In this document: positions 183 through 61,203 of the stretch, piece after piece
Position numbering within the stretch: position 1 is the stretch's first letter
Layout: each line of letters opens with the position of its first letter
Assembly (NCBI GenBank): GCA_033439295.1
Contig: JAVTLE010000003.1
Coordinates: 558,001-622,000 of the forward strand
Source of the DNA: Deuterostichococcus epilithicus
Taxonomy: Eukaryota; Chlorophyta; Trebouxiophyceae; Prasiolales; Stichococcaceae
Reading direction: 5' to 3'
Length of the DNA: 64,000 bases
Made by a program: the position numbers and the translations under genes
The notes under the pieces: model-generated
What the model saw: only the letters and a program-made list of their open reading frames with translations
Told to the model about the DNA's origin: nothing
Databases searched by the model: none

Positions 183-3100
183 GCCACATGAGGGCGCTGA
201 CGACGCGCGTGGCGCACGTGCTGCCGGTGTCCGACGACGGCGGCTCCACGGCGGAGATCGTGCGCGTGCTGGGCGGCCCGGCGGTCGGCGACATCCGCTC
301 CCGCTGCCTGCGCTTGGCCGACGACAGCAACGAGGAGGCGCGGCCTCCCTTCCTAGCGCCGCTGCTGTGGCTCTGCCACTGCGGCGCCCGCTGCCATGAT
401 GCGAGGCGCCTCGTCTCTGCTGGGGCGCCTGCATGCATGTGAAGTTGTAGGCCTGCAAACACCGCATCCCTGGGAAAGACGCTGCGTTCGTCTTGGCTGG
501 GGCCCGGCACGTCAGCTCCGTCCCGGCATCTCCTGTGACACCAGCGGCGAGGGCGCTGCGTGCTCTGTGGGCAGCAGTCTGCCACAGGCAGCGACCTGCT
601 GCAGGCAGCGCCCGGCTCGGCATGAAAAGTGCCGCACCTTGGCAGGCAGCCGGCACGTCAGGCGCTGACCACGCCTGTCATCCTGCCACAACCGCTCTGT
701 CGTCGCTCTCTCTCATGTCACGTTTGGGGTTTCACATCCGTCCTCGTCCATGCACATGAACATGTCCTCAGCGGTTGCGCTCCACAGGCTCGGGCAGTGA
801 GGGAGCTGCTGGCGTACCGCCTGCACCCGCACGACGCGGCGGCGGCGCGCCGCGAGTGGCACGACCTGGTGGAGGGACAGCACGCGCTGTGGGGCGGCGT
901 GAGCGACCCCTACAAGCACACCATCCGCGCCTTCCTGGTGCACTTCCACTCCGCGATCCTGCGCCACTCGTCGGAGCGGTTCAACTTCCGCAACGGCAGC
1001 GTCGGTGCGCGCAGTTGCTCATGAGGCTGCGGGACCCCGAACCCCACTTGCGCATCCAAGGGCAGCTCTCTTCGTGGCGTGTGACTTGAGAAACAGGTCT
1101 GCATGAGGTTGGCCAGCCAGGCCCGCAGGGGACACAAGCCCAACAGTTGGACTCGGTATCCCCCGAGGCCTGCGTGTGGGACAGGCCTGCTTCCTGGGGT
1201 CGTCACTGCCTGCAGCTTCAGGAAACCATTGCTGTGATACTCCTGATACTCCTGCTACGCAATGGAGGCAGAACATGCTGTAGTGCTCACTCAACAGGCG
1301 ATTTTGTTTCCTGCGCTCCCTGGGAACCGCCATCTTCCCTCCGCAAAAAGAAGTTCTCACATAGATGCGTGCTCAACACTCAGGCAATTTCTTCTTCGCG
1401 GGCGCCCGCCTGTTCCTGCGTTCCCTGGAGGCCGCCATCTTCCTGTTCTCCCGTGTGGCGCGCATCCCGGACGGCTCCGCCGTGCTGCCCGCCATCTGCA
1501 CCGAGGGCGTCATCACCCTCGGCGCCGAGCTGGTGCGATTGCTTGTTGTTACTGTGCCAAAATGGCAAGTCGGTAATTCCTGCCGAGCCGGTGCGGTTCT
1601 TGTCTGTGGCCGGCAGACGCCGGCGGGCAGCTGGGCCACAGGGTCGTGCGGAATGTTGGGCACGCTTCCTGCTGGTCGGTTTTTTGGGGCCTCAGGGCAC
1701 GCTCATTGCGCACTGCGCCGCAGGCCCAGTGTGATGCCCGGTTGCACGAGCGGCAGCACTCGAGTGACACCTCGCGCACCCGGCCTTGGTTCAGCCAGCT
1801 CTCGTGCAGTGGCTCATGCAAGGCTTCGACGCGTGTGTGCGCAGGAGGGGGGCGCGGTGATCCGGGGGCAGAACCAGATATCGCACCCGCCGTGTGCAGC
1901 CGGCACGGTGGACAAATCCACTGGGGGGCCCGCGCTGCCGGCGCCTGTGCGCCGCATCCTCTACCTCTCCTCCGAAGGCACCCAGCAGGTCACGCCCCCA
2001 GTGCCGTGCTGCCCCTCAGCGGGCTCCTGCCTGCTCCTCCGAGCTGCTGCCGGCCCGGCGCTGCCAGGGTGCCCCTGCGCCGCGTCTTTTACCTATCTTC
2101 GGAGGGCACCCAGCGAGCAGCGTCGGGGGCAAACTGCCTCAGATATTGCTGTGTATTCAAGCGCAAACACCTGATCGGTGGCGGTCCAGCACTGCCATCC
2201 TGCCGCAGCTGCGCTGCCTGCAAGGGCGCACGGCTAACGCACGGATCGACAAAGCCATGAGCAGCGTCACTCTGCTGACGGACTGGCAGCTGCCGCCCAG
2301 CGCTGGCGGCTGCTGCACTGCCGCCGCCAACCGGTGAACCTGCTGGCGCAAAGCTAAGCCACGCCTGCCGTCCGCTGCCGGCCCGCAGCCAGGCGACATC
2401 CAAAACACAAACCCAGCCAGAATCCAGCGGATCGACCACACTTTGCAGAACAGGCTCACAGGACAAGCAACGCATCAAAAGAAGTGCACCAAACAGCAGC
2501 CTGAGACAGGGTGGTGACGCCTGCGAACATCTGCTGCCGCAGGAGCACGAGGTGTTCCCACAGCCCAACCCGGCGGTGCTGGCGGAGGTGGGCGCCGCAG
2601 ACGGCGTTGTGTACGCGATGGGCTCACTCTACACCTCCATCTGCCCGCCGCTCGTGCTCGTCGGCGTCGGGTAGCTGTGTATGGATCAGGCATCCAGATG
2701 TTGCGCTTTAGTGCCTTCGCGGGCTGCCGCGCTGTTGATGCAGTCTGTGAGAGCTTTGTGAGACGGTGTCCGCAATCGGCAATGGGGATCAGCGCCCAGC
2801 GGCAGTCCCTCCTGCCTGCCGCGGCGCCAGCGCCTGCGGTGGCAAACCGGCCTGCTTTCGACGGTGACTCGGCGGCTCCGCCCGCTGCAGGGAGGCGATC
2901 GCGGCGCGGCGCGGCGCCCCCAAGCTGCTGCTGCTCAACGGCAGCCACGACCGGGAGACGGGGGCGGTTGCCGGCGGCGAGGGCGGAATGTCCGCTGCCG
3001 ATGTCGCTCTGGCAGTGAGCGCCCCACACAGATTCTCGGTTCTCCAGGGGCAGTGGCCCGCTGCATAGAGTAGTGTGCGCAACAAGAATTCGTGACATGC

Positions 3101-3859
3101 CTGCGGCAGCCTGATCGAGCTGGCACAGCAGGAGTGCCCGCTGGCGAGGCGAACAAAAGGGTCATGGATGTTGGGATGCATGCTGTCTCCTGGTGGCGCC
3201 GCTGAGCAGTTGACTGGTGTTGCACTGCTGCTCTTTTGGCCGCTACATCACACTACTGCACTCTAGAGCCCGAGCAACTGCTGCACCCTCGGCGCTGCGC
3301 AGCGCACCTCCGAGCGCCGTTCCTCTTCCCCTGTCCCCGCAGCTGACGCACGCGCTGAACCGGCGGCACTCGCCGCGCGGCCCCGCCCTGGAGCACCTGC
3401 CCTCGTCTTACATCACCCACATCCTGGCGCCCGCGGGCGGCGCGCTGGCGCTGGACCGCGAGCGCCTCTCCGCGCTCGGGGTGCCGAGCGTCACTGAGGT
3501 GGGGGCCTGCCCGGCAGCGTCGCTCCCACGCACCTGTTGGGTCTGGACGCACGCGCAGCGTGGCTTGCTGCTCTGCGCCTGCTCCCGGGCTGTGTGCAGC
3601 CTGCAGGGCGGAGATCGTGTGGAGTGGAGATGTTGGGGGCCTGTGGCCCGTGCATGGGGCTATCGATCCGACTCCTGGGAATCGATTGAGAAGTTGATCG
3701 AGAACGCGCGGATGGTTGTCGCAGGTGGCCTCGCAGCGTGACGGCGCCGGCAGGGCGGTGTTCGAACCAGACGCCCTTGTCGCTGCCGTCGGCGCAATCC
3801 TTGCCGAGGCAGCCAGCTTGCAGATGGACGGTTCAGCGGCAGCGGCGGCAGCAGGGTGA
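183..3859 (+). CDS. CofD-like / UPF0052 family protein (5' partial)
   Basis: Eight joined exons read in one frame: 183-337, 788-1004, 1384-1532, 1845-1988, 2543-2670, 2891-3014, 3343-3498, 3725-3859, giving 401 residues plus TGA. Diagnostic stretches are VSDDGGSTAEIVRVLGG, GDIRSRCLRLADDS, NGSVGNFFFAGARLF, RGQNQISHP, YLSSEG, VVYAMGSLYTSICP and LLNGSHDRE. These belong to the family of archaeal CofD (2-phospho-L-lactate transferase) and bacterial YvcK. The function of the eukaryotic members is not established, so no reaction is assigned. The usual N-terminal GGTxFN nucleotide-binding motif is missing. Exon 1 opens after an AG acceptor in mid-codon, so at least one 5' exon lies left of the window. 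Intron 1 would use a GC donor (338). Intron 4 holds a second copy of the exon 4 end. Family call is secure; exon 1 donor is less so. Confidence 0.9.
2053..2116 (+). repeat. Second copy of CofD exon 4 end in intron 4 (possible alternative exon)
   Basis: This stretch aligns with 1928-1988, the 3' part of exon 4, about 125 bp upstream. It encodes RRVFYLSSEGTQR where the exon encodes RRILYLSSEGTQQ. Four of the seven codon changes are silent. A CAG acceptor sits just before it, and a GC donor is possible after CGA at its end. Confidence 0.8.
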
Positions 3860-4370
3860 TGGACGTGTGGCATGGGCAGCGGGGGCCGGCGGCGGCGGCG
3901 GCTGCCCATCGGCATGCCCGCAGTCCTTCGGCTGCTGCAGGCCATTACTGCAGCAGCGTCAGCCACAGCGGCGTCGCGTACTGAGCAGCAGAGATGACAA
4001 CACAGAGTGTCCGCACTTCGGGGATGCACATGGTGTGTCTGTGCTTCTAGCTTGTCCCATGTTTGAAAGGATCGACTCTAGACCCCAAAATTGTAGAGTT
4101 GCCTAGGTCGTAAGTGTCGCTGTTGACGATGATCGTGTGGTCTCCTTTTGCCCGGCATACATATGCCAGCGGCAAGCAGAGAACAGACAAACCCAGATCA
4201 TGCAGCGGTAGGAAGCACGGATCTGCTTGCCACACACACTGAAGTGATATGGATCTGCTTACAAGTATTCTGCAGCCGGTCAGAATTCGATCACGTCATC
4301 AACCACTGCCTGCCTATGCGTGTCTCCCAGCTCAGAGGCTGCACAGGCTCTGCTTCTGGAAAGGGGTGGC
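3860..4370. other. Convergent intergenic region between CofD-like gene and Ku80
   Basis: No coding exon was recognised here; it should hold both 3' UTRs. On the minus strand a TGTAA, the usual green-algal polyadenylation signal, lies at 4259-4263, about 110 bp past the Ku80 stop. No TGTAA was seen on the plus strand for the CofD-like gene. Confidence 0.5.
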
Positions 4371-7300
4371 TCAGTCCATGTCTTCGAAGTCGTCCTCTTC
4401 AGTGCCGGCACCCGCCACCTGCGTCTGCTGCGTGCCCTGCATGTCAAAAGAGCACCGCTGAGTCGACGCCCAGCTGACGAGTGGACATGCCAAACGAATC
4501 GAGGGCTCCTGCACTCATCAGCTGTGCAGCTGATGTCCGCAGTCGGCACCGCCATTGGCTGCCAGATCCCATGCGACTCGGCCGTGTGCAAGTCTGCGGT
4601 TCCTGCGCCCTCCACCCAGCTGCTGCGAGTCGATCAACTACGAGTCGATCGACAAGAGTTCGCCAGAACCGGTGTATCAGCATGGATACCTGGACAGCGG
4701 GTGCGTGGTCCTTGAGAAACTTGGCGGCGTCGTTGGCGGTTGCGCCGCTGCCGGGCGCCTCCTCCTCGCTCAGCAGCGTCACGCCCCGCGCCATGACCAT
4801 GGCCCTGCAGGGGTCAGGGTCAGGCCTGAGGGGACGCCGACGCCAGGTCATCATTACTGCAGAGTCGCCTTCGATTCGAGTGCGGCTGGCAGGTGCACCG
4901 TGCCTAAGCTCCTGCCCCGGCAACGTGGAGGTGTGCGGCTGCCGGCCCACTTCGCATGAAGTGCGCATCTGGGAGCGGCTGCACTTGCGCCATGAATTGC
5001 AGGGTGCGTGACCTCCAGGCAGGCACAGGCCGAGCAATGCGCATGCAGGGGCAAAGCCTCCCGATGCACACCGGCTGCAGCGCAATGACGACATTCATCC
5101 CAGGGCGACTGGAGCGTTCCATGCGCGAGAGCCGTCTCGAAAGCGTGGCCTGCGGCACACAATGCCGGTGTCTTGGTGGCCTCGGCAGGACAGGGCAGAA
5201 CAACTGCGGGGCGCACCACCAGGCGGCGCGCTCGGAGTCGGCCTCGAAGTCGGCCGCCAGGCCGCGCAGCGCGGCGTTGAAGGCGGGCGCGTAGTCGCGG
5301 TGCCGGGCGCCGCCCTCCCGCATCTCGTCCAGCGCCGCCAGCGCCTTGTCGTAGTACCTGTCATGCAGAGGCACGAAAAGAAGCCATTATGCTTTTCAGC
5401 GATGTTGTTCCTGGGTTGTGCTTGACGCCGCCCTGATGCGCCGCCAGTGCCTTGTCGTGGTGCGCAGAGCAGACCCATCAGCTGAAGGGTGTTGTGGCAG
5501 GTCCTTCAGCCCGCGAAGCCACAGGCAGGCCGCCAACTGCCAGCCGGCGCGGCGGCGCAGTCGTCCTGCCGGGGCTTGCTCTCCCCGCGGGTCGGTGCCA
5601 TCAGGCCATCTCGTCAGCGGCCTTGACGCATCGGATGCGGGCTTGACAGATGCGGCAGACTCAGAGCAGTGGAGAATTTTGCAAGGGAGCTGCACTGCAG
5701 GCGTCGGGCGACGGCATTGCAACACGGGGAAAGCTCACGGAGACACTGAAGGAGCGAAGGAGCTGGGATCTACAGAAGATGGAGACTCAGGCCGAACCTG
5801 TCACCGATGCTCTTGTTAACGAGCGCCGCAACAACTTTCGGCATGCCGGCAAACGCGGCGTCGTGCCTGCCGTTCTTCAGCATCGCCTTAAAGTCTTCCA
5901 CCGGTGACGCGGTGCTGACAGCCTCCACTTCGGTGCCGGCGTCGGCCTCGGGGTCGAAGGCTGCGCTGCTGGCGGCGCGGCCTAGCAGGCCCTCAGCATC
6001 CGCGCCGCCGTCCTCGCCCGGTCCCGCTTGCGCCTGCATTTCACATCCTATGTACATTTCTGGTGTGGGGCAAACTGGAAGCCAGGAGGTCCGTGGCCCC
6101 CCGTCGGCAGCCGCGCCGTCGACCTCGCCCGCCGCTGCTCACTCGACACCTGCATTATGAAGCCCTGGTGTGGGACACAGCAGGATGCAGGAAGGGGGTG
6201 TGAGTCATCGTTAGGCTCGTCTGCCGCAACTGGCGAAGAGGCTCCTTCGGACCTGACGTGACTCAGCAGGGCCAGAGCTCGCCTGCGACCGCCCCTGCAA
6301 ACACACTGAGATTCAGGCTCATGGCTGCGCTCATGTCCACTGGCAATCGACCGAATATCTGCCACCTTGCCGGAGGCTGGTGTCGAAGGCGCAACAGCAC
6401 CGGATGCGGCTCATGCCTCCCCCCTGCCCCCTCGTGCGGCAACGACGAGGTGGTTCAGCTGGACCTGCCGAGCCAAATTCCGCCTGTCAGGCTTGCGTGC
6501 TCAGGGTCCGTGCACTGCACCTTCTCCGTGATGCTGAAGGCGTCGGGCAGCGCCGCGAGCGCGTCCGCAGCGCCCGCCGGCAGGCCCTGTGCTGGCGGCG
6601 CCGCCTGCCGGCCGGCCCCGGGGCCGGGCTCCGGCACGGGGGCCTCGGAGTCCAGTGCCCGCGCCGCCAGCAGGTCGTACACGCGGTGCAGCGCCGGGTT
6701 GGCAGTACCCTCCGGTTTGAGGAGCTCAGGCTCGCCTGAGTAAGGAAAGGAAGAGCCTGAGCAAGGAAAGGAAGATACCAGAAATCAAGAAGTGCTGCCA
6801 GCAGGCCGTACACCTGGTGCAGCGCGGGTTGATGGTGCCCTCTGGTTGCAGCAGCTCCGGCGCTCCTGAGTTTCTAGACCTGGTGCATCAGGAATGCCGC
6901 CAGCAGGTCATGCATTGCATGCGGTGCCGCATCGGTGGCGCCCTCCGGCCGCAGCAGCTCCGGCTTGCCTAGCTGCACACTCGAGGAGTTCCAGTGTCTC
7001 GGTGCTTCAGAGACAAGGTGGGCAGATGCTGCGTCAGATCAGCCCTTCGTGCTGGCCAGCGCTACCTCGCCTGAGGCGCGCTTTAAGGCCAAGCTAGTTC
7101 TCTTCATATCAGGCGCATCCACATGCCACAAGCCAAGGCAGTGCGAAGCGGCTGCGAGCACGTGCCGAGGTCGCCAGTGCAGCGTGGGTTGACTTGGCGC
7201 TCTGCTCCGTCTGCCCGGCGTCTACAGTGCCTAGGCAGATCAGCAGCAGACCGCCAATATGTCACCGGCATTAGCACCTGACAGCTGCTTTAATGGCAAC

Positions 7301-10300
7301 AGCAGGGCATAGAGCCTGCCCCGACTGAGCTGCTCAACCGCAGGGATTGCAGTAATAGGCTCGTCAGGGGCAGGCGAAGCCGAGATATTTAGCCCGTCAA
7401 AAGCAGGTCTCCCTGTGCATCTGCGGCGCACCTTTGCTGAGGTCCAGCCCCTGAACGAGGCCACGCATGGCCTCCTGCTGCGTCCGCGACGGCTTGTGCC
7501 GCTGGTTCTCCGAGTCGAAGGACTGGAAGGGGAACTGCCGGATGTCCTCCTGCACGGAATTTTGACGCAAGGCTGGTAGAATACTTGCAAAGGGTTCCAG
7601 GCATGACCGACTGCTCTCATGCTCCTGCTCTCACGGCAGCTGCAGACCACTGGTGCAAGTTTGCAGTGGCTGCTTCGGAAGTACCGGGTGCAGAGGCTGC
7701 GGACGGGGCCGCAGTTCCCTTCCAGAGGCGTATCGGGAGCGTCAGAGGCGTCATGCTCAGGCAGCCGCAAGCGTGAAGGGCTGCGACGCTGGCGGCACAG
7801 CGACGGCCCTGTGACAAGCTTGTCGCAAGCTTTTCAATTTGAGCGGCGACAGTGACAACAACGACAGCAGAAGGAGGCGCACAAAGAAGGGCAGCTCGTT
7901 GAGCAGCAGGCAGGCGGGTCGGCCGGGCGCCGCCGGCAGCGGCGAGCCGGCGTGCAGCTTTGGCGGCCCGCTGTCTCGCGGCAGGAAGCGGATGATTGCC
8001 AGCTGCACCAGGCACGACGGCAAGTGCATCATTCACCTGGAGGCGCTGTGACAACAGGTCGCTCACGAGACGGAGCCTCCTCAGCTGCAGCATGCGTCTT
8101 GAACGAAGTGAAGAGGGCCAACGACAGAGGGTGGTAGACCATGTCACATGGGGCGGCAGGTTGTCGCAGGTGATGGCTGGTCACAGCAGTGGGAAGTCAG
8201 CACAAATGCAACACTCCCCTTCCCCATCCTCCACCCCATCCTCGACTCGCACACCTGGTTGCTGTTGCGGCTCATGGCGGCGACGAGCGCTGACATGGCC
8301 AGTTGTGCCTTCTCGTCCGCTTTGTTGGGGACTACGATCCACACGTCCTGCAACACGGATCCAGGCAAGTGTGTGCCTACACGTTGTTCCAGCGCCCGTG
8401 AGCAGGGCGCACCTCTCCGTCTGGAATCGCTCCTGGCCGACGCCGCCCGCATGCCGGCATTGGAGCACGGCGGCTGCCGGCCGGGCTGTTGCCCCTCTAA
8501 GTCGCTCACGCAGCGGAGTGGGCTGCTGCATGTTCCGACGACAGGAAGACCAAACGATTCTTCGACGAGGATCCTCTCCAGGCACCTGGACTCGGGGCAA
8601 GCGCAATTCACCCGGGGTTCTGCCCGGAACCCTCTGCCTGGAAACCCCATACCTTCATGTAGTGATGGCGCGGCACGGCGGGCGCGTCCGGGTCGTTGTT
8701 GACAAAGCCCAGCAGCTGCATGCCCTTGGTCGCGGGGAACTTGAGCATTGGCAATCTCTCCTTTGACACGGGCACCAGCTGGGAGCCGTACTGCAGGGGG
8801 AAGACAACAGAAACAGAGCCGTCAGACCGGTGAGTGCGCCTCGCCTGTGTAGCCTACCAGGAATCCTCGGCAGCTGGCTGGCATGCATTCGTTCAGATTG
8901 CATTGCATCACAAGTACCTAGCTTCGTTCGCCCGCAAGCCGCTCGGGAGAGGCGGAGGCTGGAGGAGGTAGCGGAAGGAGCATGGCATGCTGAGTATGCC
9001 TTGATGTGTCCCTCGACAAGGCCGACCTTGCCTGGGTCGGCTACAGCCTTGCAATCGGCACCCTTTCACCTCTCTCGGAAAATGATGAATGCGGGAGGCG
9101 ATGCAGGTAGCCTAAACCCCTGACCTCTCAATCCTAAACTCTCAATCAAAAGCTGGTGTGGCGAGATGCGCTCGTCACGGGGGGACGACCTTGTCCGCGT
9201 CCGCACCGCCCACTGACGAGCGCCTGCACTCTCGACTCTGAAACCCCGGCAGGAGCAGTGGAAGCAGCGTGGCCCACCTGGAACGCCACGACTCTTTCAT
9301 CGGGCACAACGACCTTGTCCGGGTCCGCCACGTGCTTGTACTCAGTGTCCCGCTTGACGGTGTGCGTTGCGGCATCGCCCCGCCCCCGGTCCGACCACTT
9401 GCCCAGGGACGGCGGTTTCTCCGCTGCCACCTTCTTCACGACCTGCACGGCGGACGGAGAGCTGCTGGGTGTGCACCCCGTCGTGCATAGTGGTGCCTGC
9501 CGTGCGAACTCAGCGTTGGCATCATGCGTGCGGCGGTGCGTGTGGAGGCCCCCTGCAGGGCAGTACATGCCGTGCCTGTTTGCAACGCAGGCTGGCGGGC
9601 TATCAGCCAGAACCAGGCCGCATGCTGGCTGCCATGCTCGTGCATCCAACCCTTGTTTGAGGTTTAGGGTTCGTTGACGAACAACTGGCGGCTGTGGGTG
9701 ATGGCGTATTCCATGGCTTTGTCGCAGCATCTCCAGTTGCAGGGTTCCGGACACACTGCAGCCCAACACGCCGCATGTTGTGCAGCGGACCCAGAGGATT
9801 ATTGCCGCAATGCCGTTTGCGCGCACCTTGACGCCGATCTTCATGAGGTTGCCGATGTCGAGCGTGCCACTGAAGTATGCCTGGGGTGACGTCTCCTTCA
9901 GCCTGAGCGGAGGGCAGGCAACTTCTCTCGTCGACACCATGGTTCACGTTGTGACCTCACCCGTTTCACAGCAAGACAATCCAATCCGCCGCAATGCAGA
10001 TTGTGGCTGAATATCTGAACTGCTGGCCGGCACAGCGTCTGACAGCGGAGCAGCAGGACATCCAACCTGGACCTCCCTCACGCCCACACGAATGCTACCA
10101 GGCAACAGCAGCAACAGTCGGGTCAGATCGCGGCACCTGAAGGCCGTGCGCAGCTCGACCGGGTCCTGGATGCTGCGCAGCTTGTGGCGCACCTCTTGCA
10201 GCACCTGTCCCAAATTCCACAGCACAGAGGTCGTACGATTGCCGCGCGGACGGCTGCTCGCATCATCTGACCTTCTGCATCGTACCGAGCGCCATCACAG

Positions 10301-12258
10301 AGCTGGCATGTACAGACGGAACAGGTCTCAATGGCCTGTATCTCACGCTAAGATGTGCCCTGCTGCAGGCGCCAAGCACCGTCATGGTGGCCAAGCTCGC
10401 GCCGTTCGCTGTGTTCTGCAGGAAGATGCGACGTGCAGACTACAGCGCGGACCGCGAAGCCACCAGAGGAAACAACAGGGATGATGATCAGGCAATGAAT
10501 CATGCCTGCGCCAGGGTGTTAAGGTTAGTGTTCTTGATCTCCGTCGCCGCAGGGTCGGATCCATCGTCCGGCAGGTCGATGGACACCACGTCCAGCAGCG
10601 TGTCCTTATCCCCGTCGCCTGCGTTCCAGACGGAGACCGCAGATCCTCAATCGCTGCCGGAACACGTGTGGTTACGGAAGATGGCAATCACGAAGAAGGG
10701 AACGATGTACTTGTGTGCGCGAGCCTGATCACTGAAGAAGGGCTCTTACACTGCCCGGTTCCACACCCGCATCTCATACACTCTTCATAGGGCTCACCTG
10801 TGCTGCCCTTCAATTTGCCGACCACATGCTCGATGAACTCGTCGTCCGCGGGCGGCGACTCCCCCGTGAAGTTGGACACCTGCGAGACGCAGAAACTTGC
10901 ACATGGCAACACCACGACTTGACACGAAGGTGAGCACACTGGTCGAGAGATTGGCGGCGACTCCCCGATGAAGGTGGTCGCCTGCGGGCACAGGAAGGGC
11001 GGCTCGCAAGCGAGACTTGCACGGACCTGTGTCACCTGTCAGGTCCTGCTAGAGAGGTGTACAGGTGCAGAGGTCGCGACACCACGTCACTGGTCGCCTC
11101 ACGCTCCTGATTGCAGAGGACATCCGGGCCATATGCCCTCTTGCAGAGCGCATCCAGCCTGGCCCGCCTGTTGCGTCTTCTGCAACATGCCCCCAACCCC
11201 TCTCCCCGGCTGGCTGCGCAACAAGGGCTCTCGGTCCCACCGCAGCAGGCCGTTGCCTCAGGGAGGGCGCCCAAAGCACACTGAACGCACGCGTCCGCAA
11301 CTTCAAACCCTGTGCCAGCCGGCCTCACCAGCACTATACGCCGGGGCGACTTGACCAGCTCCACGCCGCGTCCCCCATCCTCCTCAGGCGCGAACACGCG
11401 CGCCAGAGCGTCCACGCCCACGGTCAGAGCGGAAAACCAGTCTGCGGGCGTGCCCGGCGCGCCCGGCTGCACCGCCGCCAGCGACTGCAGCCATGCGACG
11501 TCGGGCGTGCCCATTGGCCGCTCCTCTGTGATGTTGGCGTACTGCATACCAGGGTTTCACCAATTGTGAGACGTGTCAGAGTTGTGCAGCGTCAGGGGTT
11601 TGCACATGTTCGAGTCCAGTACCCTGATGAGACACCAAACATGTCGTCGCAGCTTGAAATGTCACCTGCGAGTCGTCGCCCTGGTCCGCCATCTCCTGGT
11701 TCAGACAGTTTGAGGTGCCTGGCATGAGCACATGAACATGCCATGAGCGGAATCAATCGTGCAGATCACGTTTGGTTGGGGTGGACACTGCAATGTCCTA
11801 GCAGATGGCTTCGGCCAGCAGAGTGGCATGAGTGCGAGCGGACAACCACCTGTCGTGCCGAAGAACACGAGTTGCACCTCGTGCGTGGGCTTGTTGATCA
11901 TCTACGGGGCAGCATGTTCGAGGCGTCAAACGAAACACACACGTGTGGACTCATTCATCCGAACGAGCGGCGACCCCTGCATCATCCAAGATGCCCCGTT
12001 AAACCTGCCATGCCGATCTGGTAGTCGCCTCGAGCCACACACCTTGCCCTGGATGAATGCGGAGACAGCCTTGGCGGCGGGCTCCAAGAGGTCGCCCATT
12101 TGCGGTCCGACGTCCAGCAGCACGACGCATATCTCCTGCGATACGACCGTTACAGCCTTACCAATCGCTCCAGCATTGTTATCATGTGAACTTGCAGCAA
12201 GTGTGTCGGTCTTAAATAGGTAACACACCAGCAAAGCGCGCACCTTGTTGCGCGCCAT
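4371..12258 (-). CDS. XRCC5: Ku80 subunit of the Ku heterodimer (XRCC5)
   Basis: Twenty exons join without a frame break into 734 residues, a normal Ku80 length. Ku70/Ku80 binds DNA double-strand ends in the nucleus for non-homologous end joining and also acts at telomeres. The N-terminal vWA domain starts MARNK-EICVVLLDVGPQM and continues with HEVQLVFFGTT and QYANITEERP. The Ku core follows with YFSGTLDIGNLMKIGVKV, TVKRDTEYKHV, YGSQLVPVS and DVWIVVPNKADEKAQLAMSAL. The C-terminal helical domain shows SPVEDFKAML, YYDKALAALDEMRE and GVTLLSEEEAP. The last exon ends in an acidic tail, EEDDFEDMD. The start is the only ATG that gives the conserved first strand, and exon 1 has five codons. Intron 7 would use a GC donor. 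Four introns carry decayed copies of neighbouring exon edges. It is transcribed away from the SMYD gene. Confidence 0.95.
5434..5465 (-). repeat. Decayed copy of Ku80 exon 18 start in intron 17
   Basis: On the minus strand this reads HHDKALAAHQ, matching YYDKALAALD at the start of exon 18 about 108 bp downstream in the transcript. The DNA match is clearest over the codons for DKALAA. Confidence 0.7.
6799..7070 (-). repeat. Array of decayed Ku80 exon 16 copies in intron 15
   Basis: The functional exon 16 begins at 6735 with GEPELLKPEGTANPAL. Copy B begins at 6865 (APELLQPEGTINP, then a one-base deletion). Copy C begins at 6968 (GKPELLRPEGATDA and onward to a stop). A weaker copy D begins near 7070. 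Each copy is preceded by an AG acceptor. Steps between starts are about 130, 103 and 102 bp. A fainter echo lies near 7150-7215. Confidence 0.8.
9184..9204 (-). repeat. Decayed copy of Ku80 exon 11 segment in intron 11
   Basis: On the minus strand this reads ADADKVVPP, against ADPDKVVVP in exon 11 (9308-9329), about 124 bp away. The nearby DNA between the two is not clearly alignable. Confidence 0.6.
10951..10981 (-). repeat. Decayed copy of Ku80 exon 6 start in intron 5
   Basis: The copy begins after an intact CAG acceptor at 10982-10984 and reads ATTFIGESPP. The real exon 6 begins at 10879 with VSNFTGESPP, 102 bp away. The frame stays open from the copy into exon 6, so using this acceptor would add 34 residues in frame. 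Confidence 0.75.
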
Positions 12259-12711
12259 GCCTGCTACACGCACAGGACAGGCGGCTACGACCTCATGCAC
12301 GGCACGAAGCGAAGGGTTCGGCTCAACGAGCGCAGCCCAGTCGGGTCAGTATTGAGCCTTATAGATGTGTGTACGTGCAGGGCGCTGAGTCCGACGGGAG
12401 GTGCGCAGCTGTAAGGCAATGCCTTGTGGGTGATCTGAGCGATGTACTCTCGGTTGTGCCATCAAAATGTCGCAGCTCCTGCTGGCACCATCATGCTGTG
12501 CTGCGGTCACGTGCCGTGCTGCGCCCGCAGAGGGTCTTGCGTGTTGGCGATTTGCGAAACAGTTCATGATTGCAGAATTGATATAGTTGGCAGAAGGCGT
12601 GCATTAGCCCGTATGTGCAACACCATGTGCACCCGCCTCCGTTTCCTGTCTGCACACCGCCGCCTGCAGGAAATTGCAGCTCGTGCAAGCTGACCCCTCT
12701 CGACTGACTGG
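12259..12711. promoter_or_regulatory. Shared divergent promoter region of Ku80 and the SMYD gene
   Basis: The two start codons point away from each other across about 450 bp with no recognised exon between. This region must hold both 5' UTRs and promoters. I saw no clear TATA box or other named element. Confidence 0.6.
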
Positions 12712-15517
12712 ATGAGCATCATCAGAGTGAGCGCCGCCTCCGCTCCGGAGGTCACGCAGCGCCACGCCGAGTACTTTGCTGGTTCTCACTGCTGCCTGGC
12801 CGCCAGCGCTGCGAAGGGCCGCCACCTGGTAGCGACTCAAGACTTTGCCTGCGGCGAGGCCGTCCTTGTCTCCGAGGCCTATCTGACGGCGCTGTTTCCC
12901 AGCTTCAAAAAGCGCATCTGCGCGGCGTGCCTGCGCGACGGCGGCCGCCGGCTGGCAGTGCAGTGCGCGGCCTGTGGCCAGGCCTGGTACTGCTCCGAGG
13001 CCTGCCGCGCCGCGCACAGCCGCGGTGATGAGGCCCCAGGTCCGGAACAGCCTTTTCTTGGTAGCATGCCTCGCTATCAGCTGCCGCAGCAATTGGAACT
13101 AACACTGCTGAGTTGGGCTGGACCAACAAGTGCACCCACTCCATAACTGCTGGCGGCAGGCGTGCCGAGCAGCGACGCCCACGTGCCACGCATCCCGCAC
13201 AGCATGCTGTGCCCCGTGCTCAAGCAGTTCGGCGGCCTGAAGGTGAGGAAGCTCGCAGAACTTGAGCCTGTGCAAACGGGGGGGAGGGACAGTGACAGGG
13301 GCGCAGTCCGATGAATGCTCGACCCAACATCATGTTCTAGGCGACATCATGTGCTGCGCTTGTCATGGTCACGCCCTCATTCTGCGTAGGCGGACGCCGA
13401 CATGCACTGCATCATCGTCATGTGCCTGGACCTGCTGGCGCTGCAGCGCCTCACGGCCGCGCCCATCGGCGCGGTATCTCCGCAGAGCCAGGCAGCTGCA
13501 GCGCCCGGCAGCGAGGCAGCTGCCCACAGCGAGGCGGCGGCAGCGCCCAGCAGCGAGGCAGCTGCAGCAGGCGAGGCCGAAGCAGCGTCAGAGGCAGCGG
13601 CACCGCCAGCAGCGGCAGCAGCGCCGGCCATGGCAGCGGTGCCAGCGCGGTCGCCCGGTCCTGCGCGCAGGCACGCCGGCCCCGCAGCACCGGGCTCTGC
13701 GGCCCCGGCGCTGCAGCCACGCCACGCCGACTTCGAGCTGCTGCAGTTCCACCCGGGCGGCTTCTCGGAGCGCGACGCGCAGCAGTGGCGCCGCGCGACG
13801 GCGTTCCTGCAGACAGCGCTGCGACGCGCCGGCTGGGGCGGCAGCGTGCCGTCGCAGGAGGCGCTGCTGTCCTGGGTGGGCCGCATCGCCGCAAACAGCT
13901 TCGGGCTGCACTTGGACACTCCTGCATGCGCGGCGGGCGGTGCGGCAGGAGGAGCTGGTGAGGCACCTGACGTGGAGCGGCAGGCGGCGGCAGAGAGCAG
14001 CGGCCCGGCGTTGCCGGCGAACGGCCGACCAGCCGGCGGCTTGGCGGCGGGAAGCCGGCAGCTGGATGCGGCTGACGCCGCTGCGCGGCTGCAGCGGCTG
14101 CAGCTGGCGCAGCGGCGGCTGTGGGAGGACGGCGCCGCGCCCGCGCGGCCCGATGCCACGGCCGCCGGCGCCACATGCCAGCCGTTACATCGCCAGGGGG
14201 AGGACGCAACGCCCTCTGGTGGGGAGACCGCCGCAGAGCGAGATCCTGCCGACAGCGGCTCAAGACCGCCCGCGGTAGGCACTGCCACGGCATTGCCGGC
14301 GTCGCCGGCTGCAGCGCCAATACACGGCTGTAACGACGCTGCTCCAGCGACGCGTGATGGCCGGCAGGCAGACGGAGCCGCCGCCGATGATGTCGGCCCG
14401 CCGTCAGACGCTGCCGGCGACGGCCTGGCGGTGGCGTCCACTGGCCTCCCTCTGGACGGAGGTCCAGCCGCCGCCAGCGATGTGCCGGCAGCAGTCACTA
14501 GCGACGGTCTGGCGGTGGCAGATCACGCCGGGCACGGCCGCTCGGAGCCCGTTGGCCGTGAGCTGTTCATCAGCGCCTCGTACTTCAATCACAGGTCTGA
14601 AGTTGCATCCTCCGACATGTTACTAGGTGTTTCATAATAGAGAATCCTTGCGGTTTCTTCTGTGTGTTTGCTGACTTCCATGTTCTGTCTATTGCCTGAT
14701 GTGCTTGCTGTGCCCGGTCGCCTGCAGCTGCCAGCCCAACTGCATCATCAGGCGGCGGGCGGCTTTTGGCGTCGTCGCGGCGCAGGCCGACATTCAGGTG
14801 CCTCCATTTTCTCCAGCCGCTGTCCAGGAGCAACCATGCTTTTGCCGTCGTGAGGCACGGGCTTGCCCACCTTGCTTGTGGCACTGTGCTCATGGTGTGG
14901 ACTGCAACGCGGCCCTGCGCTGCCGCCTATTTGCATTTGTCTCAGAGGCTGTAAGGCGTGCCACTCACGGTCCGGGTGTCATGAGGGACCAGGTCGACCT
15001 TGCAAAATGATTGCATGAGCCCCAAACTGCGTCCACATGCTCCACCATGCAGGCCGGCGACGAGCTGTGTATCAGTTATATCGACCTGGAGGTGCCGCGC
15101 TGCGCCCGGCAGGCCACGCTGCAGAAGTGCGCAGCCGAGAATCGTAGGCTTTGTCTCGTTGCGAACCAGCGTGAAGCAGTGCCCGAAAACAGAGGAACTC
15201 CACTTGCCAAACGCCATTGCGTCGCGCTTCTGGCTTTCTCGGTGCTCATTCCTGTCCCGCTAGTGTGCACAGGTTCTTCCACTTCACATGCGACTGCACC
15301 AGGTGGGCGAGCGTTGTGGCGCAGATATAATGCTCAGCCTTGCACAGCGTCACCGTGCAACAGAGAAAGCAAATCATGCCAACGACGCTGTTACAGGTGT
15401 CAGGAGGAGGCAGTGACGGGGTCAGGGAAGATGCACTGGGAGGCGTCAGCCTCAGTGAAGCGCGGTAAGGACAGCGCTCCGAAGCGGCGCGGTCGCAAGG
15501 CACGCATCAGCCGGTGA
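12712..15517 (+). CDS. SET and MYND domain (SMYD-type) protein lysine methyltransferase
   Basis: Seven exons, 12712-13024, 13160-13242, 13390-14594, 14728-14797, 15053-15126, 15273-15302 and 15397-15517, give 631 residues in one frame. The family transfers methyl groups from S-adenosylmethionine to lysines of histones or other proteins. The N-terminal SET half is followed by a MYND zinc finger (CAACLRDGG then CAACGQAWYCSEACRAAH, about residues 70-103). The SET core appears as FNHSCQPNC across exons 3 and 4 and AGDELCISYID in exon 5. Post-SET cysteines CDCTRC are in exons 6 and 7. Exon 3 codes for about 400 residues, much of it Ala-, Ser- and Pro-rich low complexity that separates MYND from the SET core and is unusual for the family. 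The C-terminus is basic (KRRGRKARISR). Substrate is unknown. Confidence 0.92.
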
Positions 15518-15965
15518 ACGGCTCGAGCAGGATCCATTGGCTCGGTTTGCTGGTGGTGCTGGTGGGAACTTACGTTGAACAGTCTGGACACGGTGGAACA
15601 CACTCATGCTGCAAACATGGCGCAGAAACGGTATGCAAACGATAATCAACTAAGCTGTACGAGTTGGTACACCATCACAGACGCACGGTATCCACACAAA
15701 TACTCAGCCAAGTGCCACAGACTCTATGTTAGTCTCTGGTTCGAGTGAAGCTTGCCGCAGTGCAAGAAGAATAACAAGCTCAATGGTCGCAATGACCACC
15801 GGCCGGCGGCACAATCCAACAGGTCCACCGACACCATATCAAGTCCTAATTGATCATTGCGAGGCCCCCTTGCACCACCTGATGGACCAGCGCACGGAAC
15901 CTCCGTCCTCAGATCGCCCGGTAACCTCAGGGCGGCTGTGACTTGATGCTTCGTTTGAATATATA
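15518..15965. other. Convergent intergenic region between SMYD and ABC transporter genes
   Basis: No coding exon recognised; it should hold both 3' UTRs. I found no TGTAA signal on either strand. Confidence 0.4.
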
Positions 15966-30008
<14,043 letters not shown>

Positions 30009-30826
30009 GGCGCCGGCTCAGGCTTATGCGCCGGTCCAGAACGCGATGTCCTGCAGCAGGAGCCCGCGCGCTTGGGCACCGAGCACTGGGCAGCGGAGCG
30101 GCGGCCGCCAGTGCAGCCTCACAACAGCGAAAGGCACAAGGTTTTCTGGCACCCAGACGCGGAAAGGCTGGCTTAGTTCATGAAAACATAGACGACCACG
30201 ACACATGGCTGCCGAGGGGCCGATGCGACCGTTGCACCCCTGGTCGATCGACGTCACATACAGGTGCACGGTCGATGCAAGGGTTGTGAAGCCTCTCGCA
30301 ACGCCAGAGTTGCAGCATAACATCCCATAGCAGCTGATACAAGCGCGAGGTGAAGCAAAATCAATCGCCTAAGTCCAGCTGGGCGTGTTACAGCACGGGA
30401 CGGCGTGCCCGCACGATGCACACATACGCACCGTTTCGACGGCGTCCGATACGTAGGCCTCAGAAACACAACAACTTCCAGAAAGCAGGGCGGCCCAAGT
30501 CCTGAGTGTGCCGCCTCCGGAATCCGCGAGCGATGGCCCCGGGCTTACTTATCACCGGGCGCACCCTGAGCGGCTCGACGAGAAATTTGACGCGCCGCCG
30601 GTACCGTCGTGCAACTTGAGTAAGTAACTAAAACAGTCGTGCCACTGTCGACGCTGTCCCTGCTTCAGGCGTCTACAAGTCACTGGCCAGATGTGACACA
30701 CATTATGGGAACCACCTAATGGAGGTGCAGTGTGGCTTCTGTCAGACCGTGTCCGACTGCCCGACATTGATGGCGGCACAAGCAGCTTCAACAGAGGCGA
30801 TCACAAACAAGTCCTCATGTTAACTA
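30009..30826. promoter_or_regulatory. Intergenic region upstream of the PDR gene and downstream of NOP16
   Basis: The two flanking genes are in tandem on the minus strand. This 820 bp should hold the NOP16 3' UTR and the PDR promoter. No coding exon or named element was recognised. Confidence 0.45.
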
Positions 30827-32162
30827 TCACCACAGCCTCTTGTGCGGCACCCGAAAGTCTACGCCGCTGCCGCGCCCATGCGTCTTGTACGACTGCAGCA
30901 TCTGCTTGAGCTTGGACTCCGGCAGCAGCATGGAGTTCAGCTTGGTGTCCCGCTTCATAGCCTGCGAAAATACGAGGGCACGTCACGCTCTCAGCACCAG
31001 CAGTGGCGGCAGGCCGTGCATCTGGCACAGCACACAGCCCAGCCAAAAACCACGCCCATGTTTCTGACAGTTTCCCTTCTGGCATGTACCATTGAGACCA
31101 CGAGCGTTTTACATGTGACCGGGTATAAGAACAAGTGACACACTGTTTCAAGACAGCAACGTGCCTGGACGTCGTCACCGTGTGCCGCTATGAGCCGCTC
31201 CACGATTTGCCGCTGGTGCGATGTCAACCGCGGTGGCGGTGCTGGGCCAGTCTCCCGCTGCTGCTTTAGAACTACCGCTGCAAAGTCTGCAAAGCCAGGA
31301 AAGCCACTGCTGTGCCGAGGGATTGCAAACATTCAGGTGCATTTGTCGAGAACTCCGCTGCCAAGGGCTCGAAAGCAATGGCCACTGTCGGGGCTTCATG
31401 ATGGTATGAAACCGAAACTGTCGGCTTGTGCCTCACCTTCGTCAAGCTTGGCCTCCTCGCCCGTCGCCTCCCGAGCATTGGCGGCTTCCTGCATCCACAT
31501 GCATGCCAGTTTCAGCATCAAGGGGCTCCAGTCCATGGCTGCCTTAAATGGGTCTCCCCAATGGGTCTCCCAATGGTCTCTGCTGTGGCTGCCATGCCGC
31601 CTTGAAAGCGGGAGTATGCCGAGATGGGCGGGCTCAGCACCAACGAGCATGTCACCTGCAGCGCGTCGAACTTTGCGTTGCGTCCAAAGCCGGCGTTGAT
31701 ATCGCTCAGCAGGCCCGACTCCTTGTAATTCTGAGTGTAGCCCTTGTCCTTCTTCCACTGCGGTCTGCATCAGGATGAAACACTTGCAGCGGTTGATGGC
31801 AGGATCTTCTGGGTTGGTCAACCGTCCCGTTTCAAAGCATCGGGTTGCGACTTCAGCGTGCCACAGCGGAGACAAAACAGCACGGGTGACTCTTCGAAGC
31901 ACGCTGCGCAGCCCATCACGCGCGTGCCGCCCTCCCGATATGGAGCACAGCGCACGTCTTGCTGCTGCCGCGAGCCCGAGAGCAAGGGAGCAAGGTATGT
32001 GCAGAGCTAGGGGACTCACCGCACGCCCAGCTTCGCCTCGATATCGCCGGTGTTGCCCTGAGAGACGTCATGTGCAATTTTCCCCTTGTGGAACGGCTGC
32101 CGCTTCTTCTTGATTGTCAGCTTCGGCCTGTACCGTTTGGACCGCCTGAGGCTGCCTCCCAT
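30827..32162 (-). CDS. NOP16: NOP16-like ribosome biogenesis protein
   Basis: Five exons, 32020-32162, 31656-31764, 31437-31488, 31165-31271 and 30827-30961, give 181 residues in one frame, close to the family length. NOP16 is a small basic nucleolar protein needed for 60S ribosomal subunit assembly. It begins MGGSLRRSKRYRPKLTIKKK, the conserved basic start. Further matches are QWKKDKGYTQNYKESGLLSD, SHQRQIVERLIAAHGDDV and AMKRDTKLNSMLLPESKLKQ, followed by the C-terminal PHKRLW. The acidic-to-neutral middle (EAKLDE) is shorter than in yeast. Exon 4 starts after a TAG acceptor at 31272, chosen because only this joins in phase. Intron 4 has a GC donor (31164). The gene lies in tandem with its neighbours on the same strand. 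Confidence 0.9.
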
Positions 32163-32809
32163 GTTATACTCGGTGCGTGTCAGAAGGCTTGCAGCTGCTG
32201 CTGCGGTCGTGCCTCACGACGGCGCTGAAGCCTGGTATAGCCAGACGGCGCCCTTGCAGTAGGTGGCAAACAGTGGGAGCTACGCTCCGCGAGCAGTAGC
32301 CTCAGGCTCACCGGTCAACCGCGAATGCTAAGAGGCTGTTCCTGGTAGCGGAGCTGCAGTCAGACAAATAGGCCACGGGGTGATGTGTGTTGCAATGGCC
32401 GCTTAGTGGAGTGTCTTGCGATTGAGGAGTACGCTCGCAACGAAGCCTCAGTACGACTCTAAAATGCAGTGTTTTCAACAATGCATTGTTTTTCTTTGCG
32501 AGCATGTCTTGCGAGCAAGACATGAAATTCACGCCGTGAACACATGTGAACTACACGCTCCTGTGAGCTGGCGAAACCCTGAGGCTACAGCAGACTACAG
32601 AAACGAAGCGCACTAGTGTTGCTTGGCAACAGCTCTCAGAAGTAAAACTGTCCAGATTGCTTTGGCTACGCTTTCGCCGTCGCTTTCGCCGTCTTGCGCG
32701 CTGCTGCACCCAGCGTCCCCCACCTTTTCTTTCCAAGCCGCGTGACTGCTGCTTGCAATGTGGGGAGTCGCGGCTGCAGCACAACATCCACCGCCGCGGC
32801 GGACCGCAC
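32163..32809. promoter_or_regulatory. Intergenic region upstream of NOP16 and downstream of the FUSC-like gene
   Basis: About 650 bp between tandem minus-strand genes. No coding exon recognised. It should hold the FUSC-like 3' UTR and the NOP16 promoter. Confidence 0.45.
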
Positions 32810-35800
32810 TCAGACCTTGTCTACCCTCGGCGGCTTCGCTTCTGGCCGCTCACGACCCCGCTCCTGCTGCTGCTCCTGCTGCTTGGAGCCGGAAGGCCGC
32901 CGCTCCTGCTCCAAGCCCAGCCAGGCGCGCCACCGGGGGCCGCTTCGGTGGCAGCGCGCACGTAGCCAGGCATCGCCGGCGGCGGTGTTGGCCAGCAGCA
33001 TGATTTTGTCCATGGCCGCGCTCGACGAGTACGCCCAGCTGAGCCACCGAACTGCGCAGACCGAGACATGCGTGACATGCGGTCCGACAGCTCGCTCGCC
33101 ATGGATGCCTATGCAGTCCAACAGGACGGGGGGCTTCCAAGGTCCAGGCCCTGCGGCAGCGTCCGATGACACCGCGCACCAGACATAGGGCCATGCAGCT
33201 GACACTGCAGTCCCGCGCCTTTTCATTGGTTCCGTTTGGTGGAGGGACGCTACGGCGCATTTGCACGAGCACAGCTGCGCACAGCGGGCAGAGCAAGAGC
33301 AGCAGGGTCGGGGCTGCAGCGGAGCTCACCCGCATCGTCGGCGGTGCGCTCGGGGTAGGCTCCGGCCCGAATCTGCGCGTGGTACGTCTGCATCGTCTCC
33401 AGGTACGCCCGCCGCAGCTCCAGCCTGCAGCCGTGGTGTGAATGTGGTTGTGGGTGGGTAGATCGGTAGTCCAGTGTACATGTGCGGCGTGGGCTCATAT
33501 GCGTACAGCTGCACCACCAATACCACAACACAAGAAGACTTTGTCGCCAGCACCCCGGCATTCGTGAGAGAATGCAGTCCTTCAGGAAGGCTGCGCAGAT
33601 CCTAATCCTTCGATCATGCAGTCAGAGCCCGCCAAAGCCTCACCTAGCGGCCGTCAGGCCAGTCACGGCCGCGGCCACGTCGGCAAGCTGCTGCGGGCTG
33701 TGGCCGCCCTCGTCGCCCGCCAGCAGCACATTGACGGACTTGCCCACCTGCGAAAGCGACACAGGGCTGTGCATGGGCTGGCAGAGGAGCGACGGCAGCG
33801 TCACAGCGGCAGGTCGCCAGCCAGCGCTTCGGAGCTTTTGATCCCCCCTCCAGCTGCCACAGGGAGCCTTTTAATCGAGAACCCGCCGGGAAACCGCAAA
33901 GACTTCGACTTCCAGGCGTTGCAGGCGCAGCGCGTCACCTCGATGGCAGCGTCAAAGCCAGCGACGCAGGCGGCGTGCACGGGGCGCGCGATGGCGACGT
34001 AGGTGGCGTCCGAGTAGCGCCCCGTGATAATGGGCCGGTGCTGCAGCACGGCCTCCACCGCCGTCATGCGCAGCAGCACCGTCGACAGGCAGTCCCTGAG
34101 CGAGTACACCACCTGCGATCAGCCGGGTGAGGGGTTCGGGTTCGGGTTCGGGGTCAGGAGAGGCACGCCGCAGAGTGCACCTGATGATGGGGTTCACCGA
34201 AAATGGAGTTGTCAGGAGGCTGGCGACTGGGGAGGGCTGTCGGGGAAAGCGAGGGCCTCAAGCCTGGGTCGAGTCATTGCGGCGCACAGGAAATGCAATG
34301 CTGCAGAGCCCTCTTGGTGAACACGTGGACAGCCGCGCAGGCGTACCCCGACCGTATCCAGAAAGCCTGCCACCTCCCGGTCTAGCCACTCGTGCTGGCT
34401 ACAGTGCAGCCATGGCACAGCCTCGAGGCAGCAACTGCTGATGCAGCGCAGTGCAGATCGTTCACTGAGGCGTGCCTTGGGCATGGCCTGGCAGCTGGAC
34501 AGTCCACAGAACGTCCCAAGCACCTGCACCCGCATCAGTCACCACCGAGTCCCACAGCCAGGGGGAGCCGCTGCAAGGAGCGGCGCGCCTTGGGCATGGC
34601 GAGGTAGCCAGACGTCCACAGGACCTGCTCCCTGGCCAGCACCACCTGCACCAGCGCGAGGCGGCCGCCCAGGCGCTGCTCCAGCACCTTGCGCTCCCGG
34701 CCCGCCAGCGCCGGCTCGCCGGTGGTGCGCCCGCCTGCGGGGCGGCAGGACGACAGCTCTCGGCCTGCTTTCAATCAGCTCCTAATGAGCCGACGTATCC
34801 AGCTCCCAGTCGGGGGACCGCCAGCCTCCCGCAAAACCGCCCGCACGCTCCTGAAAGCGCGTGTTTTGTTCTGGAGACCGTCGAATTGGCGGCTGGCTCG
34901 TTGTCGCCTGCGGCCCTGCTCAGGCGGCGGCCGTGCGGCCGCTCTCGTGCCCAGAGCGGCACGCTGGCATGCCATGAGCGGCACGGCGGTGAACGCAGAC
35001 CATCTGGCGCTGCGGGCCGCACCAGGCTGCCCCAGCGCGCCTGCCACCCTGCTCAGGCAAGCGACCGCCGGGAGGTCGCAGAAATGTGTGCTTTGCAGCG
35101 AGACAGCATCCAAAGCGCAGTCGTGGAGCCTCACCGGGCTGCTGCAGCGCGTGGTACATGACGTCGTTGAACTCCCGCAGCGTGGCGCAGGCGTCCTCCA
35201 CGCCGGCGCCTAGCGTCTCCAGCACCGCCGACGAAGAATACCAGGGCAGGAACAGGATGTCCACCACCTGCGGCGCCCGGGTCGTGACTCATGAAAACAA
35301 ATCATGTGAACCAACCATTTAAACCCCGTCAATGCGTCTGCCTGCGCATGGCTGCCTCGGGCATACAGGTGGGCGGCACAGCATGCGGCAGCTGTTTTAA
35401 GCAATGTTGTGTCATCCTGTGCCTGTCATGGACTCCAACAGTAAATGACGACACATATTGGGTTGGGCAGATCAAGGAGCTTTCGGAAAGCACACCATGA
35501 CAACGAAGAGGCCGATGGCGATGTCCACGACGCGGGCGTAGAAATACAGCACCGTCCCCTTTTCCAGGCCCCACTGACAAAGGACTACCGCTTCCGTGGT
35601 GATCAGCGTCAGGAACACTGCGTACCGGATCTGCAGACCAGCTCATGCAACAGAGTCACCAAGAGCACGAAACATGGGGCAAACGGACGTGCTGTGCAGC
35701 AGCCCACGGCCACAGGGCAACGCCTGCTGCACCGGAGCACTCCAGTCGCGGCACGGCTGCGGCCAGGGACTGCAGACAAATCAGCAGTGCGAGGCAGGGC

Positions 35801-61143: not shown

Positions 61144-61203
<60 letters not shown>

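Follow-up and report, generated by a model that had tools for sequence, protein, structure and literature searches.

Intron growth is usually ascribed to mobile elements or to random insertions. Among the described systems closest to the case reported here are i) small tandem duplications that arise in mouse or human cells when breaks with overhangs are filled in and end-joined (PMC8355091, PMC5730883), ii) intron gain by tandem genomic duplication, in which a new intron lies between duplicated AGGT sites in an exon (PMC3443670, PMC4974935), and iii) exon duplication and intronization in Drosophila (PMC2891723). Here we analyzed a 64-kb stretch of Deuterostichococcus epilithicus (positions 558001-622000 of contig 3, termed the window; the assembly totals 46.8 Mb in 21 contigs), where introns of the CofD gene, the Ku80 gene and a FUSC-like gene carry decayed copies of the edges of adjacent exons. 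Such copies were found at a preferred offset and in direct orientation, both inside and outside the window.

The window was compared with itself along every diagonal (offsets 20-1000, score >=16, five low-complexity tracts masked). This returned 15 matches, four at 20-25 bp and eleven at 84-133 bp, while no match of that score was found at 26-83 or 134-1000 bp. Ten shuffles preserving local dinucleotide content, the kind of control on which the initial annotation had staked its claim, yielded almost nothing (one match altogether versus the 15 real ones). The comparison was extended to a genome sample of 294 kb, consisting of the window plus 23 stretches of 10 kb each, drawn from nine further contigs and from elsewhere on contig 3 (loci of the sample outside the window are labeled L005, L006, L015, L018 and L019, and numbered introns or pairs are marked #). 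After removal of matches with low trinucleotide variety (173 of 253 direct and 92 of 123 inverted; score >=15), direct repeats formed 20 loci at 20-79 bp, 24 at 80-139 bp, five at 140-199 bp and 0-5 per 60-bp class beyond, whereas inverted repeats formed one, zero and one locus in the first three classes. Thus direct orientation and close spacing, the marks of small tandem duplications, were both found (24 direct versus 0 inverted loci at 80-139 bp). Many of the direct-repeat matches came from L018 8294-8778, a minisatellite-like array called intergenic with many offsets of 39-222 bp, which was set apart when pairs were classed as exon-intron, intron-intron or exon-exon.

Gene models were predicted with a two-strand hidden Markov model whose sole training set was the 294-kb sample itself, with no outside data or RNA support; in these models ~11% of predicted donors in the sample are GC instead of GT. 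The model converged on 583 introns (571 internal, median 222 nt), with a GTGCGC-like donor signal and an acceptor signal of yGCAG. Pfam matches on the predicted proteins were CofD (PF01933) for CofD, Ku and Ku_PK_bind for Ku80, FUSC (PF04632) and FUSC_2 (PF13515) for the FUSC-like gene, and Nop16, ABC-2 transporter and protein kinase for further proteins. The models have faults: one predicted gene joins the FUSC and Nop16 genes, and the model at 55323-64000 has many stops.

Exon edges were then compared with introns, using the same low-complexity filter as for the intron-flank and intron-intron scans and omitting exons <25 nt and introns <60 nt, which gave 1049 edges. The first or last 70 nt of an exon matched its own adjacent intron 33 times at score >=13 over all offsets, versus 3.3 times with swapped edges; at score 17 the matches numbered 17 versus 0. 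With up to 250 nt of exon, there were 37 direct, 6 inverted and 8 swapped-exon matches. Chance was thus ruled out by the shuffles (one match in ten shuffles together) as well as by the swapped edges (3.3 versus 33). Keeping only offsets of 80-170 (five of 28 matches fell outside) left a core set of 23 copies in 22 of the 571 introns, with offsets of 82-166 (mean 123, sd 19). The similar spacing reported by the initial annotation (102 to 130 bp, in three genes) is supported as a preferred offset, and it persists outside the window, in the direct-repeat peak at 80-139 bp and in the exon-edge offsets alike. Outside the window lie 13 of the 22 copy-bearing introns, and enrichment within the window itself is modest (9 copies among its 144 introns versus 14 among 427 elsewhere). 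Exon-edge duplication is general in the genome sample and extends beyond CofD, Ku80 and the FUSC-like gene. For the full 46.8 Mb, ~3,500 affected introns would be expected, provided that the sample is representative. One common process behind the copies, as the initial annotation supposed, is likely but not proven.

Leaving the L018 array aside, pairs at 80-150 bp that were not low-complexity numbered 25: 18 exon-intron, four intron-intron and three exon-exon, the L005 and L015 pairs in the last class being gene-model errors in our view. At score >=11.5, introns matched themselves 30 times at 20-79 bp (3.3 in shuffles) and 13 times at 80-159 bp (3.1 in shuffles), with no excess at 160-319 bp (6 versus 6.0), while exon-intron matches numbered 4 (1.2 expected) at 20-79 bp and 32 (3.2 expected) at 80-159 bp. 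The two kinds of match differed across the two lower offset classes (Fisher, P = 1e-7 on raw counts). Since the intron-intron excess also stops near 150 bp, the size limit is shared by sequence outside exons. All eight exon-exon pairs found at 20-79 bp had offsets divisible by three (24, 30, 30, 30, 45, 51, 60 and 72), as expected for coding repeats.

Within the window, decayed exon-edge copies of the kind initially annotated were present in all three genes, under an intron numbering that differs from the initial one. A repeat finder recovered most of the same window pairs as the diagonal scan. The features are as follows.

1927-1986, + strand: 3' part of CofD exon 4, source (offset ~128)
2052-2114, + strand: decayed copy of the end of CofD exon 4 (50 of 63 aligned columns identical), lying in intron 2001-2542
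1308-1338, + strand: copy of CofD exon sequence in the preceding intron 1005-1383 (27 of 31 identical, offset 105)
1413-1443, + strand: source segment in CofD exon 1384-1532, paired with 1308-1338
5332-5355, - strand: Ku80 exon start, source (offset 106)
5438-5461, - strand: copy of Ku80 exon start 5332-5355 in upstream intron 5358-5738 (22 of 24 identical)
5990-6131, - strand: possible Ku80 pair of exon segment 5990-6020 and copy 6101-6131 (26 of 31 identical, offset 111); it stands outside the non-low-complexity pair set and outside the 23
6663-6741, - strand: Ku80 exon start and acceptor, source of a two-copy ladder (from repeat scan and alignment)
6794-6871, - strand: first ladder copy, Ku80 intron 6736-7431 (63 of 79 columns identical, offset ~131)
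~6896-6970, - strand: second, more worn ladder copy of Ku80 exon edge 6663-6741 (from alignment)
9185-9204, - strand: copy of part of a Ku80 exon, lying in intron 8791-9277 (offset 124, 19 of 20 identical)
9309-9328, - strand: source segment in Ku80 exon 9278-9442, paired with 9185-9204
10851-10884, - strand: Ku80 exon start and acceptor, source (offset 102)
10953-10986, - strand: copy of Ku80 exon start 10851-10884 in intron 10880-11328 (29 of 34 identical)
34469-34512, - strand: copy of part of a FUSC-like gene exon, lying in intron 34113-34555 (offset 113, 36 of 44 columns identical)
34582-34624, - strand: source segment in exon 34556-34734 of the FUSC-like gene, paired with 34469-34512
34905-35058, - strand: intron-intron pair 34905-34925/35038-35058 inside intron 34735-35134 (19 of 21 identical, offset 133)

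As far as coordinates allow the comparison, the pairs 1308-1338/1413-1443 in CofD, 9185-9204/9309-9328 in Ku80 and the weaker 5990-6020/6101-6131 in Ku80 go beyond those initially annotated; two further weak pairs (#83 and #98) lie in the FUSC-like gene.

The 23 copies derive from exon starts (14) and exon ends (nine), the matching pieces falling mostly within 60 nt of the exon's start or end, and 43-131 nt of spacer separate a copy from the real splice site. Five introns hold ladders of two to four copies with steps of ~94-131 bp. In the 803-nt intron L019 4257-5059, the start of the next exon is copied four times (one copy being weak) and the end of the previous exon once; two-copy ladders occupy L005 9537-9964, L006 7188-7714, Ku80 6736-7431 and L019 3300-3541. 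The exon-proximal copy aligned best in four of the five; in L019 3300-3541 (#473) it was the farther one. Second ladder steps appear among the long offsets, at 209, 225, 235 and 243 bp (score 13).

Intron length, donor signals and anchored flank extension were analyzed at offsets of 80-250, whereas acceptor AG at fixed offset, codon pattern, fixed-offset flank identity and the closer simulation used the 80-170 set. The 24 introns with copies had a median of 419 nt; in the remaining introns, counting those no shorter than 150 nt, it was 247 nt (P = 7e-5), which supports the proposal that such duplications can lengthen introns. The further claim that each unit includes an AG acceptor or a donor stood for part of the set: at fixed offset, AG was kept at -2,-1 in four of 14 acceptor-side copies (#21, #188, #222 and #475; gapped alignment adds #12, #98 and L015), and the donor position held GT in one and GC in four of nine donor-side copies. 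The least diverged exon-edge pair, L015 5825-6017 (50 of 52 columns identical), is treated by the gene model as an in-frame exon of 39 nt with an intron of 91 nt after it. As modeled, it is a possible young exon or intron and the sole candidate for the creation of a new exon or intron, an outcome also raised by the initial annotation. As a separate observation, an intron predicted in an ABC transporter gene holds, at window positions 18954-19073, 30 copies of GCAG, a motif near the acceptor consensus.

Mismatches between copy and source occurred at all codon positions (27/229 at position 1, 31/227 at position 2 and 52/225 at position 3, i.e., 12, 14 and 23%), a spread that fits a freely drifting copy together with an exon changing mainly at silent sites. 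There were 59 non-synonymous and 36 synonymous changes, a stop codon in one of the 23 translated copy segments, offsets divisible by three in four of 23, and frameshifting gaps visible in gapped alignments. The base-change tally showed no drift in GC content (43 GC-to-AT versus 50 AT-to-GC). From their sequence the copies look neutral, with no function indicated.

Our leading interpretation, held with not quite even confidence, takes the copies for remnants of small, local duplications in direct orientation across exon-intron junctions, most likely contiguous tandem units of ~80-150 bp. A tandem unit of ~80-150 bp would have been duplicated locally and directly across the junction; the outer, original splice site would have stayed in use, the extra exon edge and intron end would have turned into intron, and the intron would have grown. 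The intronic copy would then decay without selection while the real exon remained constrained, leaving mainly the exon half recognizable now, and some junctions would have been duplicated two to four times, leaving ladders. The upper step limit near 150 bp may come from the mutational process, e.g., from long-overhang breaks being filled in and end-joined, since the intron-intron excess stops near the same length. The lower limit near 80 bp, drawn from the few exon-intron matches at 20-79 bp, may come from splicing, as very short duplications would set two competing splice sites side by side. The intronic half seems to have disappeared faster than simple ageing would account for, and selection against an additional functional splice site may have contributed.

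The intronic half is where this interpretation is strained. On the one hand, anchored outward extension into the intron reached a mean of 4.1 versus 1.9 with swapped flanks (sd 0.5, 0/100 replicates as high, 23 pairs); the excess is carried by a minority of pairs, #350 and #222 among them. In L006, 25 intron bases ahead of the acceptor are identical. On the other hand, a series of results weighs against tandem units. At fixed offset the intronic flanks were at background past ~10 nt (acceptor side, 0.22-0.28 between -11 and -100; donor side, 0.23-0.32), and free local alignment of the flanks scored 16.1 versus 15.3 swapped (sd 0.6, 27/300 replicates as high, 22 pairs). Homology in L015 ends ~11 bases upstream of the acceptor although this is the least diverged pair. 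Exon-intron matches at 160-399 bp also exceeded the null (13 versus 3.0), some of them being second ladder steps. Short intron-intron repeats tend to be less diverged and may form a separate, younger class, which would weaken the argument for step limits set by mutation and splicing.

In a first, looser simulation of tandem duplication followed by neutral decay, age seemed to account for the lost flanks. A closer simulation asked for simultaneous agreement with the observed identity, flank identity and flank score (0.854, 0.25 and 16.1, respectively), with 2000 sets of 23 per run, and its outcome likewise counts against tandem units. In none of six mixed-age runs did any set match (0/2000 each), and only four of 12 single-age runs matched at all (fractions 0.017, 0.0025, 0.022 and 0.49, where the run behind the last value detected 11 pairs of 700). 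All four had 0.15-0.3 indels per substitution and 0.27-0.42 substitutions per site. Events detected in these runs were 49, 148, 39 and 11 of 700 (2-21%), so that the 23 copies seen would stand for ~100 to >1000 events on 1049 edges. By the three better fits, plain tandem duplication, if true, would mean that one old wave had duplicated at least a third of exon edges. Under this model, plain tandem duplication would fit only with uniformly old events and frequent indels, or with an extra force erasing the intronic half. The closer simulation thus lowered our confidence in tandem units and raised that in copying limited to the exon.

Such exon-limited copying is a substantial though less probable explanation: a segment of the exon edge would be pasted 43-131 bases into the intron without its intronic neighbors, by template switching during repair or replication. 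It would account directly for homology that is confined to the exon and a few intron bases, for spacers and copy flanks that are on average not alignable, for the sharp loss of homology in L015 and for the scarcity of intron-intron pairs at 80-150 bp, and it gains from the simulation's rejection of plain tandem duplication of mixed age. However, template switching is expected to give both orientations, and only the direct one stood out in the repeat-locus and exon-edge scans (24 versus 0 loci; 37 versus 6 matches). Intronic homology is present in #222, #350 and L006 (more weakly in #98 and #83), intron-intron matches have the same size limit, and in simulation very old tandem duplications would look alike. 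Tandem units retain their lead on three grounds: orientation is direct only, some flanks survive, and intron-intron matches share the size limit. More tentative still is the broader statement that a local process uses exon edges, and not the adjoining intron, as template and lays 80-150 bp ladders in the adjacent intron, detectably touching a few per cent of introns. Splice-aware or RNA-templated copying, first drawn from the exon-limited homology, was set aside; spliced RNA is an unlikely template because junction copies carry intronic bases such as CAG.

The remaining explanations are all improbable. Conserved alternative or mutually exclusive exons, with both copies used and selected, could explain why some acceptor copies keep AG in place and why only one of 23 translated segments, though these are short, contains a stop; but we consider them quite unlikely, as codon positions 1 and 2 differ by 12-14%, non-synonymous changes outnumber synonymous ones (59 versus 36), few offsets are multiples of three (4/23), gaps shift the frame and GT is found in one of nine donor-side copies. 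The alternative exons that the initial annotation raised as a product of duplicated edges thus find no support, as conserved exons, in the codon pattern and the offsets. Duplication within a coding exon followed by intronization of one copy deserves equally little credence: it agrees with homology limited to the exon, but the spacer should then match the exon past the copied edge, and identity at exon positions 60-119 was at background (0.20-0.28, acceptor side). An assembly or haplotype artefact, with a second allele or an uncorrected read piece inserted beside the first, is slightly less credible again; the assembly does contain scattered N bases, but inserted pieces should bring intron flanks and few coding changes, whereas the copies are ~15% diverged with a neutral codon pattern and no flanks, and a 401-base query from the region matched a single genome place. 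Diverged alleles were rejected on that single match and the codon pattern. Least credible of all are mobile intron elements (introners) or other dispersed repeats, which would fit the many introns and the recurrent spacing; all-against-all comparison of the 571 introns gave one similar pair, and the 23 spacers gave three matches to the 294 kb, all of 21-28 bases (E 0.001-0.004).

As relics, the exon-edge copies would be direct evidence for intron lengthening by local duplications at splice junctions. The slowly changing exon keeps visible a duplication history that introns erase, and the size window could test which duplications splicing tolerates. The missing intronic half is a puzzle; one old wave that duplicated about a third or more of exon edges would, if true, be as striking as exon-templated copying. 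Among the matches listed from open-licence literature, in titles and the starts of abstracts, there was no description of exon-edge relics at a preferred intron offset.

Compared with known systems, the copies resemble tandem exon duplication and mutually exclusive exons in that repeated exon pieces lie close together in one gene, but here only exon edges are repeated and they look neutral (PMC9013439), with no sign of coding constraint on both copies. Unlike introners or transposons, they were not dispersed among unrelated introns within the 294-kb sample. As in Drosophila intronization, duplicated exonic sequence ends up in an intron, but the spacer here has no coding match (PMC2891723). The break-repair duplications of mouse or human cells are alike in being direct, local and size-limited; those are fresh mutations, whereas the present events appear old, lie at exon edges, span 80-150 bp and are only probably contiguous (PMC8355091, PMC5730883). 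In intron gain by tandem duplication, too, an extra copy of exon sequence is spliced out (PMC3443670, PMC4974935). A new intron about as long as the offset was not what we found, judged on intron length and copy position (median 419 nt, with the copies inside), L015 with its 91-nt intron being the one near case; instead, existing introns appear to have been lengthened from their edges.

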